DNA from: Sinomicrobium oceani
GTDB lineage: Bacteria > Bacteroidota > Bacteroidia > Flavobacteriales > Flavobacteriaceae
DNA length: 39,165 nucleotides
NCBI RefSeq assembly: GCF_900119185.1
Contig: NZ_FPJE01000035.1
Location: 3,232 to 42,396 of the forward strand
Direction of reading: 5' to 3'
Part shown: piece after piece, positions 29,818 through 36,087 of the stretch
Layout of the letters: every line of letters begins with the position of its first letter
How positions within the stretch are numbered: the first letter of the stretch is position 1
Program-made: the position numbers and the translations under genes
The notes under the pieces: generated by a model
What the model was told of the DNA's origin: nothing
Database searches by the model: none
The model's input: only the letters and a program-made list of their open reading frames with translations

Positions 29818-31296
29818 TTACAACATAGTTCCTGCTACCGCAACGAGGTTTCTCAATTCGTAAAGGGAGACAGAGGAGTGGCCTTTACGGATCAGAAGGT
29901 GTGTCTTACGGGCAATTTTGTTGAGTTTTTGGCAGGTAGTCCCATCGGTTTGCCCCTGAGTGGCTTTTGTGATGTAGTGGCTGTACATCAGCTCCTGTAA
30001 TTCGGCGCGTAGTTTTTCCGTTAACAGATGCAATTCTTTGATCCGGGTGATGCGGCGTGGTTTTTCAGTACCGGAATAAGAGATGGGGGGCAGGGTGATA
30101 TGATCAAGGCGGTCTGCTGCGTTCGCGGCTGCCCTGCTTCCTATAACCACAGCTTCAAGCAGCGAGTTGGATGCCAGCCGGTTGGCTCCGTGAAGACCGC
30201 TGCAGGCACACTCGCCATTGGCATACAGGTGGTCTACCGAAGTTTTGCCTTCCGTATCGATGAGGATACCACCACATTGGTAATGAGCTGCCGGCCGTAT
30301 CGGTACAGGGCTTTCCGAAAGGTTGTAGCCTGCTTTCCTGCAATGCGCTGCGATATGTGGGAACGAGATCCGGAACATATCCGTGTCCAGATGACGGCAA
30401 TCGAGAAATACACGGTTTCCCCGCCTGAATTCCGTGAGTATTGCCGCGCTGACCACATCGCGGGTGGCCAGCTCTCCGTCGGGATGATAGGTAAACAGAA
30501 ACCGTTTTCCCTGTGTGTCGATAATATGGGCACCGAATCCTCTTACCGCTTCCGAAACCAGGAAAACCGGGTTTTGTGTTCCTTCATGTAAGGTTGTGGG
30601 GTGAAACTGGTAGAAAGACATATCGTGTATCCTGGCCCCGGCTCTCATGGCCATGGCTACACCGTCACCGGTAGCGATCAAAGGGTTTGTCGTAGTACCG
30701 AATACCTGCCCGCTGCCGCCTGTAGCCAAAAAGGTAAGCCGGGCATAACAATATCCGGTGTCCTCACTTCCGGATTGGAGATAACGGATACCCAGACAGC
30801 GGTTGTCTTTTACGATAAGATCTTTAACGAATACCCGGGAGTGAAAAACGATGTTTTTAAATTCTCCCGCTTTCCGTAACAAGGCCTCCAGGATACTTAG
30901 CCCGGTCTGATCCCTGCAATGCAGGATACGGTGCCTGCAATGACCGCCTTCCCGCCCCAGTTCCAGGTTTCCTTTGCTGTCGCGGTCAAAAGAGACGCCC
31001 CACCGGGAAAGTCGTGCAATCTGTTCGGGTGCCGAGCCGATAATAGTGCGGACCACCTGCTCATTACAAAGACCCCGACCCGCGCGAAGGGTATCCCTGA
31101 TATGATTTTCGAAAGAATCCCCAATGAGGTCTGTTACCGACGCTATACCTCCCTGGGCATACCGGGTATTGGTTTCTTTTATTTCTCCCTTGGTACAGAT
31201 GTATATGGAAATATCGGGGCGGAGCTCTGCGAGTTCAAGAGCAAAAGTTAACCCGGCAATACCGGACCCCAGTATGAATACGTCGCACGATCTCAT
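29818..31296 (-). CDS. nadB: L-aspartate oxidase
   Basis: A 492-residue FAD enzyme that oxidises L-aspartate to iminoaspartate, the first step of de novo NAD synthesis. The FAD-binding motif GSGIAGLTFALELAE is at residues 10-24. The family stretches YAQGGIA, EGGHCRHRILHCRDQTG, PTTLHEG, GFGAHIIDTQGKRF and AAHYQCGGILIDTEGKTSVDHLYANGECACSGLHGANRLASNSLLEA are intact. It is a little shorter than the E. coli protein at the C-terminus but looks complete. It starts four bases after nadA, so the two form an operon and hand over the unstable iminoaspartate. nadC is not in the window. Confidence 0.95.
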   Translation of the reverse strand: MRSCDVFILGSGIAGLTFALELAELRPDISIYICTKGEIKETNTRYAQGGIASVTDLIGDSFENHIRDTLRAGRGLCNEQVVRTIIGSAPEQIARLSRWGVSFDRDSKGNLELGREGGHCRHRILHCRDQTGLSILEALLRKAGEFKNIVFHSRVFVKDLIVKDNRCLGIRYLQSGSEDTGYCYARLTFLATGGSGQVFGTTTNPLIATGDGVAMAMRAGARIHDMSFYQFHPTTLHEGTQNPVFLVSEAVRGFGAHIIDTQGKRFLFTYHPDGELATRDVVSAAILTEFRRGNRVFLDCRHLDTDMFRISFPHIAAHCRKAGYNLSESPVPIRPAAHYQCGGILIDTEGKTSVDHLYANGECACSGLHGANRLASNSLLEAVVIGSRAAANAADRLDHITLPPISYSGTEKPRRITRIKELHLLTEKLRAELQELMYSHYITKATQGQTDGTTCQKLNKIARKTHLLIRKGHSSVSLYELRNLVAVAGTML

Positions 31297-31300
31297 AGTG

Positions 31301-32239
31301 TTATGGTGAAATTTTAAATATTTTTTCTATAGGCCGCAGTGCATTTTTCAGGAGTGTTTCTTCGAGCTGGACTTCGGGTGATTCGTCTGCCAGGCAGCGG
31401 TAAAGCTTTTCGAGGGTGTTCAGTTTCATGTAAGCACATTCACTACAGGCACAACTGTTATTTTCTTCAGGAGGTAAGGGGATAAACTGCTTATGCGGAG
31501 CGTCGTTTTCCAGTTGATGGATAATTCCGGCTTCTGTTCCGATAATAAAGGTTTCGGCTTCTTGGGTCCTGACGTATTCCCGTATTTGCGCAGTCGAACC
31601 TATAAAATGTGCGATGCGGAGGATGGCAGCTTCCGATTCGGGATGCGCAACGACTTTGGCCTGCGGATATTTTCGGTGAAGCTGTATTAGTTTTTCCAGG
31701 GAAAAGGCCTCGTGTACCATACACGAACCGTCCCATAAAACCATGTCGCGTCCCGTAACCTTGCACAGATAGGCTCCGAGGTTCTTATCCGGTACAAAAA
31801 TAATAGGTTGATCTTCGGGGATGGCACGGATGATGTTTTCGGCATTTGAAGAGGTACATACATAGTCGCTCATAGCCTTGATCGCTGCTCCCGTATTGAT
31901 GTAGCTCACTACCATGTGATCCGGGAAAAGCGCTTTGAAGCTGGCAAAATCTTCGGGTTTGCAATGATCGGCGAGAGAACATCCGGCTTCGGGGTCGGGG
32001 AGAAGTACACGTTTGTCGGGATTCAGGATTTTTGCGGTTTCCGCCATAAAACGGACGCCTGCAAAAACGATGGTGCCGGCTGTAGTCTTTGAGGCAACCC
32101 TGGCCAGTTCCAGACTGTCTCCTACGAAATCCGCAATATCCTGTATGGCTTTCTCCTGGTAACAATGGGCGAGGAGTATGGCATTTTTCTCATCGAGTAG
32201 TTTTCTGATCCGGGCACGGTAAAAGTCCTGGTTTTGCAT
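31301..32239 (-). CDS. nadA: Quinolinate synthase
   Basis: A 312-residue iron-sulfur enzyme condensing iminoaspartate with dihydroxyacetone phosphate to quinolinate. Conserved cysteines for the oxygen-sensitive 4Fe-4S cluster are C87 (EAGCSLADHC), C173 (GSCMVHE) and one of C263/C265/C268 (SCACSECAYM). Other family stretches are LAHCYQ, VGDSLELA, GVRFMAETAKILNPDKRVLLPD and GTEAGIIHQL. It is the first gene of the nadA-nadB operon. A minus-strand TACTTTTG (-7 box) lies at 32272-32279. The palindrome at 32302-32315 sits about 33 bases beyond that box and is shared with the anaerobic ribonucleotide reductase operon on the other strand. Confidence 0.96.
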   Translation of the reverse strand: MQNQDFYRARIRKLLDEKNAILLAHCYQEKAIQDIADFVGDSLELARVASKTTAGTIVFAGVRFMAETAKILNPDKRVLLPDPEAGCSLADHCKPEDFASFKALFPDHMVVSYINTGAAIKAMSDYVCTSSNAENIIRAIPEDQPIIFVPDKNLGAYLCKVTGRDMVLWDGSCMVHEAFSLEKLIQLHRKYPQAKVVAHPESEAAILRIAHFIGSTAQIREYVRTQEAETFIIGTEAGIIHQLENDAPHKQFIPLPPEENNSCACSECAYMKLNTLEKLYRCLADESPEVQLEETLLKNALRPIEKIFKISP

Positions 32240-32388: not shown

Positions 32389-33009
32389 ATGACAAAAGCG
32401 CATATTATCCGGGACAGTGCGGAAAAAGGTATTTCTTACGAGGCTTATGGTCTGTTGTTAAAAGAGCTCTCCGACACAGGCAAGACGACAGGACCCGACC
32501 AAAGCCCCGAACTGGTGGGGTTTACCAAACTTAATGCCAGCAGAATGCGCCGGCTGGATAAGAAGGTCGTTGTGCCGTCTGAAGCTATTCGTACCTTGCG
32601 GACTTGTATCCGTGAACCCCAGTTGTGGCTTGTTATTACCGAAAGCTGGTGCGGAGATGCTGCACAAACCATTCCCGTATTGCACCGTGTAACGGAAGCG
32701 GTGCCGGATGTCAGACTTCAGATGGTTATGCGAGATGAAAATCCCGGGCTGACCGATCTTTTCCTCACCGGTGGGGCCCGGTCTATTCCGAAACTTATTA
32801 TACTCAACCGCGATTTCCGGGTATTGCATACCTGGGGGCCACGTTCGGTAAAAGCGACTACTATCGTGGAGACTTACAGGAAAGAGCACGGCAAAATAGA
32901 TGCAGCCCTGAAAGAGTCTCTGCAAATATGGTACAACCGGGATATGGGGCAGGCCATAATAGAAGACCTGGTGCAGTTGCTCTGCATACCTTGTACCGAA
33001 AGTAAATGA
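32389..33009 (+). CDS. Thioredoxin-fold protein with single active-site Cys and a C-terminal CIPC
   Basis: A 206-residue cytoplasmic protein of the thioredoxin-like group (PF14595-like). The usual CxxC site is replaced by ESWCGDAAQTIPVL, leaving one Cys (C88) followed by Gly-Asp. The cis-proline region is GGARSIPKLIILNRDFRVLHTWGPR. Unusually, the C-terminus carries CIPC (C199, C202), a second possible redox pair five residues from the end. The gene is first in the operon with nrdD (13 bp gap), the detached glycyl-radical domain and nrdG. It might act as an electron donor or repair factor for the reductase, but this rests only on context. Confidence 0.75.
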   Translation: MTKAHIIRDSAEKGISYEAYGLLLKELSDTGKTTGPDQSPELVGFTKLNASRMRRLDKKVVVPSEAIRTLRTCIREPQLWLVITESWCGDAAQTIPVLHRVTEAVPDVRLQMVMRDENPGLTDLFLTGGARSIPKLIILNRDFRVLHTWGPRSVKATTIVETYRKEHGKIDAALKESLQIWYNRDMGQAIIEDLVQLLCIPCTESK

Positions 33010-33022
33010 TGAGAACTACAGC

Positions 33023-35140
33023 ATGATGAAACGTCTGGTCATAAAGAGAAACGGTGCGTATGTGAAGTTCGAAGCACATAAGGTCCGTACGGCTATAGAA
33101 AAAGCTTATGCGAGTGTAAGCAGAAGCCCTGATACGGAAGTTATAGAAGGGCTGCTGAAGCAGCTCGAAACGACCGATATTATGGTCGTCGAGGATATAC
33201 AGGACAGGATTGAAAAGGCGTTGTATACGGCAGGACATTTTGAGGTGATGCGTTCTTTTATGCGCTACAGACATACCCGTAAAATGCAGCGGGAACACAC
33301 CTGTGGACTACGGGAATACACCACCTATGTCGATAGTTCGCAGACTATTGCCGAGTATATCGAAGAAACCGACTGGCGCATACAGGCCAATGCCAATACT
33401 TCATATTCCAATGCAGGCCTTGTAAACAACGTGGCTGGAAAATTAATCGCCAATTACTGGCTGGATGAAGTATATTCCGAAGAAGAAGGGCAGTCTCATC
33501 GTAACGGCGATCTCCATATTCACGATCTGGATTGTCTCACGGGGTATTGTGCGGGCTGGAGTTTACGAGTCCTGCTCAACGAAGGTTTTAACGGGGTTCG
33601 TGGCAGGGTAGAGAGCAGGCCGCCCCATCATTTCAGGGAAGCCCTGGGACAGATGGCTAATTTTCTCGGAATATTACAAAGCGAATGGGCAGGTGCACAA
33701 GCGTTCAGCTCTTTTGATACCTATCTTGCCCCCTATGTTTTTAAAGATAGGCTTGATTATGAAAGTGTACGCAAAGCCATCCGGAGTTTTGTATATAACC
33801 TGAATGTTCCGGCCCGCTGGGGACAATCTCCTTTTACCAATATCACACTCGACTGGGTGGTCCCCGAAGATCTGAGCATGCAGACCCCGATGCGGGGAGA
33901 TCGTCATCTCTTCGAAGGTGATGAACATGAAGCGTTACGGATCAGGGCCAAAGCACGGGGAGCCGAAAGGCCGACCGATTTGCAATACAGGCATTTCCTC
34001 GAAGAGATGCAAATGATCAATAAGGCATATTACCAGGTGATGACCGAAGGAGATGCCGGAGGACAACCTTTTACCTTTCCCATTCCTATGGTGAATATCA
34101 CCGAAGATTTTGACTGGTACGGAGAAAATACGGATCTGCTTTTTGAAAATACCGCCAGAATGGGAACCTCTTATTTTCAGAACTTCATAGGAAGCCAGTA
34201 CCTTACCGACCAGAATGGAAACAAGGTGCGCAACCCCGAAGCGTATCAGCCCAATGCAGTAAGGAGTATGTGTTGCCGTTTGCAACTCGATCTCCGTGAA
34301 TTGCTGAAAAGGGGAAATGGCTTGTTCGGGAGTGCGGAAATGACAGGTAGTATCGGAGTGGTGACCATAAATATGGCCAGGCTGGGATACCTGTATCCCG
34401 GAAGAAAAAAGCAATGCTATCGCGCACTCGATCGTCTGCTGAGAATCGCGAGTTCCACACTGGAGAAAAAAAGGGTATTTATACAGGAGATGTACGACAG
34501 GGGACTGTACCCGTATACCAGACGTTATTTGCAGCATTTTCGCAATCATTTCTCGACTATCGGCGTGAACGGTATCAACGAAATGGTACGTAATTATACA
34601 GGAGATCAGTACGATCTGACCACGACTTACGGCCATACCATGGCCTCCGAAGTCCTGGAGTATATCCGAAAGCGTTTGCAGGAGTTCCAGGAAGCTACCG
34701 GCAATCTCTATAATCTGGAAGCAACTCCTGCGGAAGGTACTACATACAGGTTTGCCAGGGAAGACGTAAAGCGCTTCCCGGATATTCTACAGGCGGGGAC
34801 CCCGGAAAATCCGTATTACACCAACAGCTCGCAATTGCCGGTAGATTTTACCGATGATCCTTTCGAAGCATTATTGATGCAGGACGGGTTGCAATGCAAA
34901 TATACCGGGGGCACCGTATTGCACCTGTATATGAAAGAAAAAATAAGTTCTCCCGAAGCGTGCCGGCAGTTTGTAAAGACGGTACTTACCAATTTCAGGC
35001 TCCCCTATATAACGGTGACCCCGGTATTCAGTATCTGTCCGGTACACGGTTACCTGGACGGAGCATACGAGTTTTGTCCGATATGTGATGAGGAGTTGGA
35101 GGCAGCACGTGAAAAAAGAGAATATGCTGTCAAAAAATAA
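33023..35140 (+). CDS. nrdD: Anaerobic (class III) ribonucleotide reductase large chain lacking the glycyl-radical motif
   Basis: A 705-residue chain that reduces ribonucleotides to deoxyribonucleotides without oxygen. Residues 3-90 form an ATP-cone (MKRLVIKRNGAYVKFEAHKVRTAI). The catalytic 10-stranded barrel follows, including LHIHD-type NGDLHIHDLD and the conserved SMCCRLQLD (C417, C418). The C-terminal zinc site is C672, H675, C685, C688 (ICPVHGY...FCPIC). The normal chain continues 10-20 residues later into an RVxGY glycyl-radical loop; here it stops 17 residues after C688. No such motif occurs anywhere in the protein. The motif is in the next ORF, 35265-35417, and the two are presumably complementary. 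Confidence 0.93.
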   Translation: MMKRLVIKRNGAYVKFEAHKVRTAIEKAYASVSRSPDTEVIEGLLKQLETTDIMVVEDIQDRIEKALYTAGHFEVMRSFMRYRHTRKMQREHTCGLREYTTYVDSSQTIAEYIEETDWRIQANANTSYSNAGLVNNVAGKLIANYWLDEVYSEEEGQSHRNGDLHIHDLDCLTGYCAGWSLRVLLNEGFNGVRGRVESRPPHHFREALGQMANFLGILQSEWAGAQAFSSFDTYLAPYVFKDRLDYESVRKAIRSFVYNLNVPARWGQSPFTNITLDWVVPEDLSMQTPMRGDRHLFEGDEHEALRIRAKARGAERPTDLQYRHFLEEMQMINKAYYQVMTEGDAGGQPFTFPIPMVNITEDFDWYGENTDLLFENTARMGTSYFQNFIGSQYLTDQNGNKVRNPEAYQPNAVRSMCCRLQLDLRELLKRGNGLFGSAEMTGSIGVVTINMARLGYLYPGRKKQCYRALDRLLRIASSTLEKKRVFIQEMYDRGLYPYTRRYLQHFRNHFSTIGVNGINEMVRNYTGDQYDLTTTYGHTMASEVLEYIRKRLQEFQEATGNLYNLEATPAEGTTYRFAREDVKRFPDILQAGTPENPYYTNSSQLPVDFTDDPFEALLMQDGLQCKYTGGTVLHLYMKEKISSPEACRQFVKTVLTNFRLPYITVTPVFSICPVHGYLDGAYEFCPICDEELEAAREKREYAVKK

Positions 35141-35264
35141 CAGAAGCAGGGGTGTAAATATTATAAGCTATCGTTAATCTGCAAATGACAAAATGGTCGG
35201 GAGCCGGAAGCTTCCCTTAACTCATGCGCTGACCACTGAAAACAATGAATGAATACATAGAACT

Positions 35265-35417
35265 ATGAATACAACTAAACTCAGTGCCGGAGACGAAGAA
35301 AGAACCCGTTGCCTGGTTTACACCAGGGTCATGGGATATCACAGACCTGTAGAAAGCTTTAATACCGGGAAAAAAGGTGAGCATCGGCAACGTACATATT
35401 TCAGCGAAAAGGCATAA
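35265..35417 (+). CDS. Stand-alone glycyl-radical domain of the anaerobic ribonucleotide reductase (50 residues)
   Basis: A 50-codon ORF, ATG 35265 to TAA 35415-35417. Residues 16-46 read as the C-terminal radical domain of class III reductases: CLVY, RVMGYHRPV with predicted radical Gly24, then FNTGK, E39, R41/R43 and YF. The 26 residues after Gly24 match the length of the tail after the radical glycine in ordinary NrdD (25 in phage T4, as I recall). An in-frame TGA at 35250-35252 blocks extension upstream. The frame differs from nrdD and 124 bp separate the two, so a simple frameshift does not explain the split. nrdG, the radical-generating enzyme, overlaps its 3' end by 41 bp. Confidence 0.85.
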   Translation: MNTTKLSAGDEERTRCLVYTRVMGYHRPVESFNTGKKGEHRQRTYFSEKA

Positions 35418-36087
35418 GCCTATTTATGATGTAACCCCTTTTACATTAATGGACTACCCGGGACACACAGCCTGTATTGTTTGGTTTTCGGGATGTAACA
35501 TGCGTTGTCCGTACTGCTACAATCCGGATATTGTGAAGCGTAAAGGAAGGCTCTCGGTCTCGGAAGTACTTACGTTTCTGGAAAAAAGACAAGGGTTGTT
35601 ACAGGGGGTTGTGCTCAGTGGAGGGGAGTGCTTACTGCACCCGGCAGCCTTTGAAGTTGCTTCCCGCGCCAAAAAAATGGGATTTCTGGTCAAGGCCGAT
35701 ACCAATGGTAGTTGCCCTGAAATGCTAAAAAAATTATTGGACTGCTCCTTACTCGATGGCGTCTCTCTCGATTTTAAGGCATTGCCGGAGCGGGAAACAG
35801 CAGTTACGGGAAAGTCTTTTTTCAGTCATTTTTGCCGGTCTCTGGAATTACTGGTGTCTGCGGCAACAGACTTTGAGGTACGCACTACCATACACAGCTC
35901 CCTGTTGTCGGAGAATGACCTGTTGAAAATGGGGGCTTTTCTGTGGCATAGCGGGTACCGGGGCACATATTACCTGCAACGATTTATGAGTGGAGTAGAT
36001 ACGCTCGGATCGCTTCCTCCGGATGGAAATACGATTTCCGAAGCGTGTCTTTCGCGGTTTCCGTTAACTACCAAACTCAGGAATTGA
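35377..36087 (+). CDS. nrdG: Anaerobic ribonucleotide reductase activating enzyme
   Basis: A 236-residue radical-SAM enzyme that creates the glycyl radical on the reductase. The 4Fe-4S motif CNMRCPYC (C40, C44, C47) is followed by YNPDIV, VLSGGECLLHP, DTNGSCPEML and LLDGVSLDFKAL, all typical of this activase group. The family starts with KPIYDVTPFTLMDYPGHTACIVWF, so the start must lie upstream of it. The candidate is GTG at 35377, which places the first 41 bases inside the small glycyl-radical ORF. It is the last gene of the operon and converges on the TetR gene four bases away. Confidence 0.92.
   Translation: MSIGNVHISAKRHKPIYDVTPFTLMDYPGHTACIVWFSGCNMRCPYCYNPDIVKRKGRLSVSEVLTFLEKRQGLLQGVVLSGGECLLHPAAFEVASRAKKMGFLVKADTNGSCPEMLKKLLDCSLLDGVSLDFKALPERETAVTGKSFFSHFCRSLELLVSAATDFEVRTTIHSSLLSENDLLKMGAFLWHSGYRGTYYLQRFMSGVDTLGSLPPDGNTISEACLSRFPLTTKLRN

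Follow-up and report, generated by a model that had tools for sequence, protein, structure and literature searches.

How a class III (anaerobic) ribonucleotide reductase (RNR) obtains its radical glycine is the question raised by a locus of Sinomicrobium oceani (contig NZ_FPJE01000035.1) at positions 33023-35417 of the window, by which we mean the whole stretch of 39,165 nucleotides analysed here. The glycyl-radical loop is absent from the large chain, NrdD, and is encoded on a separate open reading frame (ORF) at 35265-35417. We propose, with a probability of roughly 0.88, that the two genes specify an obligate two-chain class III RNR, in which the small protein would give the radical glycine in trans. 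The parts of the locus are as follows.

33023..35140, plus strand: NrdD large chain, 705 residues (Pfam NRDD 2-530 of 562, ATP-cone; NCBIfam NF006126, 1051.6 bits)
34268..34276, plus strand: finger-loop Met-Cys-Cys (M416, C417, C418), candidate thiyl-radical cysteines
35036..35086, plus strand: zinc site, presumed ligands C672, H675, C685 and C688 (invariant columns of alignment A1, nine rows; ligand role by homology)
35141..35264, plus strand: gap of 124 nt between nrdD and the small ORF
35265..35417, plus strand: glycyl-radical domain protein, 50 residues, own ATG (Pfam NRDD 532-562; a separate conserved ORF in 127 split loci)
35334..35336, plus strand: codon of Gly24, presumed radical glycine of RVMGY (invariant in 127/127 split loci; radical-site role by homology)

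The Pfam NRDD profile has 562 positions, of which NrdD covers 2-530 and the small ORF 532-562. Both pieces together therefore make one NrdD, whose break lies after the zinc site and before the glycyl-radical loop. NrdD scores far above the cut-offs of PF13597 (524.1 against 26.2), TIGR02487 (404.3 against 326.35) and NF006126 (1051.6 against 548), and the small ORF reaches 29.5 bits with Pfam NRDD, above the cut-off of 26.2. M416-C417-C418-R419 is invariant in the nine split NrdDs of alignment A1; MCCR is the double-cysteine finger-loop motif as given in PMC9669993. A preliminary description of this DNA had NrdD ending 17 residues after its zinc site, and indeed the last zinc-site cysteine is C688 and the chain stops at 705. 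The same description placed the radical motif in another frame with its own ATG, an upstream in-frame stop and a 124-nt gap, all of which is borne out by the ORF calls and the Pfam match. The frame of the small ORF is +1 relative to NrdD (2242 mod 3 = 1), and a stop precedes it in frame because this frame opens only 4 codons before the ATG. Neither an Rfam match nor a terminator-like site was found in the gap. One promoter-like site was detected in the gap region, where 0.8 would be expected by chance in the 551 nt scanned.

The small gene is real. Across all pairs of the 127 split loci compared, some of which entered the set twice under two names (L003 and L062, for instance), the pN/pS (nonsynonymous to synonymous ratio) of its core is 0.027, versus 1.9 and 5.6 in the other two frames. 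The core is under strong purifying selection and the ORF is not a chance one. Around RVMGY the positions -8 to +25 number 34, and at 22 of them all 127 loci have the same residue. N-terminal to this core lies a variable extension, with the ATG 16 to 31 codons upstream. Extra residues are kept on both sides of the break, such as a leucine at -15 in 118/127; in fused relatives, of which 19 were measured, the last CxxC cysteine is followed by the loop arginine at a distance of 8-16 residues.

The radical glycine could also be missing from NrdD if the gene had decayed, or had been damaged in sequencing, and the small ORF were a remnant of its 3′ end. This explanation is refuted by conservation and we give it practically no credence: the selection on the small ORF is strong, the finger-loop and zinc-site residues are invariant in 9/9, and the split is found in 80/80 of the named relatives kept, which are the best 80 of at least 555. 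A fused chain in the relatives, with a defect in this strain alone, had been considered in the preliminary description; with few exceptions the relatives are unfused.

Alternatively, one chain could be made from both ORFs through programmed frameshifting, stop read-through or intron removal. The overlap of the ORFs by 4-41 nt in 77 of the 127 loci would suit such a route. However, the small ORF is found in each of the three frames relative to nrdD (91, 25 and 11 of 127) and the spacing runs from -41 to +631 nt, with 50 pairs separated, and therefore no single frameshift or read-through rule fits all loci. Furthermore, no common slippery site was seen by eye in 28 overlap sequences, one to eight stops separate the ORFs in the 17 named loci where both share a frame, and the gap in the window lacks an Rfam match. 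Production of one chain is thus very improbable. The longest gap, 631 nt in L062, has no evident gene and appears repeat-like by eye; the gaps of the other Sinomicrobium loci measure 81-124 nt.

Could another enzyme supply what NrdD lacks? In the source genome (5.02 Mb, 99.98% complete) a genome search found no second nrdD, the NRDD locus at 33023-35417 being the only one, so that the second complete copy contemplated in the preliminary description did not materialize. PF01228, the glycyl-radical domain of the pyruvate formate-lyase (PFL) type, has no match in this genome, and the small ORF, compared with Pfam up to E = 1, matches NRDD only and not PF01228. Two other RNR large subunits (PF02867) of 815 and 564 residues are present, and their C-terminal cysteine pairs suggest oxygen-dependent class I enzymes. 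If they are of class I, anaerobic DNA precursor synthesis would therefore depend on the split enzyme.

The arrangement is common in Bacteroidota. By NCBI ranks the 80 named loci comprise 53 Flavobacteriaceae, 15 Cyclobacteriaceae, 1 Sphingobacteriaceae, 1 Chitinophagaceae and 10 others. One record is titled as a Bifidobacterium breve metagenome-assembled genome (L128); its locus groups with Flavobacterium rows, and the bin is probably mislabelled or contaminated. Within Sinomicrobium nrdD occurs in 4 of 6 genomes and is split in all 4. A family sample of 199 genomes contained NrdD of the split type in 4, all split, besides 17 genomes whose NrdD is fused and belongs to a different type, and 3 with weak or partial matches. 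A phylum sample of 392 genomes contained the split type in 10, again all split, and the remaining NrdDs there are fused. Among 148 genomes of Cyclobacteriaceae the split type occurs in 16 and is split in 16/16; among 151 of Sphingobacteriaceae it occurs in 18, of which 17 are split and 1 (L171) is fused, the family being inferred in both samples. A possible fused chain in G035, an 802-residue open frame, was discarded on finding three in-frame stops.

The preliminary description framed the split within Bacteroidota. This frame proved too narrow, since the arrangement also occurs in Pseudomonadota, in Campylobacterota and on viral contigs. Tblastn of plasmids returned 28 records with the small ORF as query and 27 with NrdD. 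Nineteen plasmid loci were opened, 18 of them distinct (L208 repeats L187), and nine had been picked from the small-ORF hits and were hence likely to carry the small gene. Among the 17 loci with nrdD, 14 are split (Cupriavidus, Paracoccus, Bradyrhizobium, Sulfuricurvum and others) and 3 are fused (Actinomyces oris L199, Geoalkalibacter L200 and Acidiphilium L204). Four viral contigs match the Bacteroidota NrdD. Two of them, L175 and L176, have the split, and their small ORFs are closely related to the present one. On a third (L177, 415-4906) the NrdD, of 1461 residues, is interrupted by an intein-like insert; its separate small ORF is of a different type (RVVGYLRP), and a second split may have arisen independently here. 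The NrdD of the fourth (L178) is disrupted, and the stretch examined showed no radical motif.

Other viral NrdDs showed features of their own. In L244 (1510-4563) an intein-like insert interrupts the finger loop precisely between M and CCR, and the chain ends soon after the zinc site; the radical-loop motif was not found in 1.4 kb downstream. In L196 (3483-5891) and L218, from phage or viral contigs, the radical loop is followed in frame by a domain that by eye resembles thioredoxin or glutaredoxin (CPNCK) and is a candidate built-in reductant.

A tree of 61 rows with the radical domain cut away places all 48 split enzymes in one clade of 51 rows (ultrafast bootstrap 100; Shimodaira-Hasegawa-like approximate likelihood ratio test 100). 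L177 (intein-like insert), L178 (disrupted), L191, L194 and L207 are not in this tree, and L055, L035, L036, L037 and L039 were dropped as remote. The three fused rows within the clade are L171, which stands beside the split L162 (100/95), and the Actinomyces and Acidiphilium rows, which lie on long branches in the pseudomonadotal part, their placement flagged as unsure by the program. Everything outside the clade is fused: other Bacteroidota (L033, L034, L038, L040, L041, L043 and L044), Geoalkalibacter and two phages. Three changes suffice on the tree (3-4 across bootstrap trees), and the simplest reading is one split followed by two or three re-fusions, where the direction of the changes is what we infer. 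The split would have arisen once in the ancestor of this NrdD subfamily, with horizontal transfer between phyla and a few reversals. An earlier tree, with 106 rows and no plasmid loci, agrees for Bacteroidota; the early view of a single split within Bacteroidota was replaced once the plasmid loci revealed the wider clade. A re-fusion of exactly these two pieces is, by established reasoning, a hallmark of cooperating proteins.

Why the two pieces have stayed apart is a separate matter. They may result from neutral gene fission, assembling once and staying together, with no benefit from the split, and we put this at even odds. One clade with few re-fusions agrees with it, as does a gap that drifts freely from -41 to +631 nt and in L062 extends without an evident gene. 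Nevertheless, the split persists across phyla with only 3 fused among the 51 clade rows, and residues such as the leucine at -15 are retained on both sides of the break.

For the obligate two-chain enzyme itself, the 705-residue NrdD would bind nucleotides and hold the catalytic cysteines. NrdG would convert the glycine of the 50-residue protein into a storage radical, and the small protein would dock into the open end of the NrdD barrel and supply this glycine. The physical association, the radical transfer in trans and the activation of the small chain by NrdG are what we infer. The remaining features of the cluster are the following.

33035..33283, plus strand: ATP-cone domain, NrdD residues 5-87 (Pfam PF03477, 57.7 bits)
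35377..36087, plus strand: NrdG-type radical S-adenosylmethionine activase, GTG start as listed (NCBIfam TIGR02495 NrdG2, 185.5 bits, cut-off 131.15)
32389..33009, plus strand: thioredoxin-like protein, ending 13 nt upstream of nrdD (TIGR01068 matched weakly, at 17.3 bits where the cut-off is 96.8)

The NrdG-type ORF comes directly next and, as listed, shares 41 nt with the small ORF, its true start being uncertain. The thioredoxin-like protein is a possible reductant for NrdD. A thioredoxin-like ORF also lies upstream of nrdD in the Sinomicrobium loci L003 and L005 (the latter with a variant motif). A thioredoxin partner as a general feature was considered and not shown: the narrow motif was upstream in 3 of 123 loci, L003 and L062 being the same locus and the L005 variant being missed. 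On the minus strand, 29818-32239 carries what we take to be nadB-like and nadA-like genes, divergent from the nrd cluster.

NrdG would most likely act on the small chain while it is bound to NrdD. This is expected by analogy with YfiD, whose activation was proposed to require binding to cleaved PFL first (PMC8683613). For fused enzymes the radical domain is said in PMC12662201 to flip out for NrdG action, and in PMC11226230 to be mobile in some states; in the split enzyme the separate chain could make the same movement.

The small chain might also be an exchangeable radical cartridge, such that O2 cuts the 6-kDa chain at its glycine and a fresh chain restores an intact 81-kDa NrdD. The precedent is PFL with YfiD/GrcA, whose authors (PMC8683613) speculate on other glycyl radical enzymes. 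Denitrification markers occur in the flanks of 19 of the 80 named loci, a count without a control group, and a NorB-like gene in 3/4 Sinomicrobium genomes with the split enzyme versus 0/2 without. However, the source genome has the split enzyme yet no NorB-like match, 61 of the 80 loci have none of the four denitrification markers, and re-fused members persist (L171, L204 and L199). In addition, gene overlap in 77/127 loci suits co-translational assembly as well as exchange. We consider the cartridge function possible but doubtful. With similar reserve, one may imagine a plan like that of class I, in which NrdG charges a separate small subunit that docks into NrdD and only the 50-residue cartridge is replaced after cleavage by O2; such a plan would have arisen once and spread via plasmids, viruses and other routes among bacteria that switch between O2 and nitrate.

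Several observations weigh against the obligate two-chain enzyme. NrdD is damaged in 2 of the 14 split plasmid loci. On a Bradyrhizobium plasmid (L191, 1054-3436) an IS3-like transposase interrupts nrdD and the small gene is still open, and on another plasmid (L194) a broken NrdD stands next to the small gene. On an Allochromatium plasmid (L192, 3501-3710) the small gene has no annotated NrdD or NrdG as a neighbour, and a search of the plasmid at 1e-60 gave no match to NrdD. The pair is therefore not always intact or adjacent. A structure model aligns with NrdD of Prevotella copri, Thermotoga maritima, Streptococcus thermophilus and phage T4; it was built with an artificial tether and fused homologues in the alignment, and is therefore no test of free-chain docking. 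Its stretches under 50 in predicted local distance difference test score include the finger loop (410-436), and the model yields no Gly-Cys distance. The small ORF alone, compared with solved structures, gave one chance match (E 1.6).

Genetics from another organism bears on function. The nrdDG locus of Cupriavidus necator H16 is essential for complete denitrification according to PMC2864759, citing Siedow 1999, and the pHG1 nrd locus of this strain has the same split arrangement as that of Sinomicrobium. A split enzyme therefore very probably works in a cell, a view resting on second-hand genetics. The computed mass of the pHG1 NrdD chain without the radical loop is 76.19 kDa. The abstract of the 1999 work reportedly gives an NrdD of 76.2 kDa. 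Altogether, the idea of a radical domain acting in trans as an obligate small subunit, already put forward in the preliminary description, is well supported on its comparative side by the sole NrdD found, the missing loop, the conserved neighbour gene, the re-fusions and the pHG1 genetics; the action in trans itself stays a deduction.

Encoding a reductase in two pieces is also seen in NrdJa/NrdJb of Pseudomonas aeruginosa, a split RNR of class II, which is another class and has no glycyl radical. The present enzyme shares the ATP-cone (where present), barrel, finger loop, zinc site, glycyl-radical loop and NrdG with the fused class III RNRs of P. copri, T. maritima, S. thermophilus and phage T4; unlike in these, the radical glycine is on a separate protein and not in the same chain. 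Similarly to GrcA/YfiD, a small free-standing glycyl-radical domain would serve a larger enzyme without an intact one (PMC8683613). GrcA, however, rescues an enzyme that normally owns a glycine, whereas NrdD here has none, and the small ORF does not match PF01228. In the literature, class III is tabulated as "Glycine in enzyme" (PMC4390871), the radical domain is placed at the C-terminus of NrdD (PMC9669993), and spare parts are shown biochemically for PFLs only (PMC8683613). The parts of PMC2864759 at hand mention NrdD and NrdG only and no third chain for H16 pHG1, and give NrdDG of C. metallidurans as Rmet_5137 and Rmet_5139 with the intervening number unmentioned. We found no description of a split NrdD in open-licence literature; subscription papers may mention one. 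That short ORFs of this kind sit in databases under the nrdD name, as had been supposed, is confirmed by the NCBI annotation: the large piece is named a ribonucleoside triphosphate reductase (for example WP_011154155.1) and the small piece nrdD, anaerobic ribonucleoside-triphosphate reductase (for example WP_011154154.1). Both pieces are thus already in databases, and the split arrangement itself seems undescribed.

Our study carries a warning for annotation, in that each piece alone resembles a broken or tiny nrdD. For biochemistry it provides an enzyme in two parts whose radical domain is open to labelling, titration, mutation or exchange, and the proposed spare-part repair of glycyl radical enzymes becomes testable outside PFL. 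A widespread lineage with the radical domain as a separate subunit would break the rule that class III enzymes carry the glycine in the enzyme itself.
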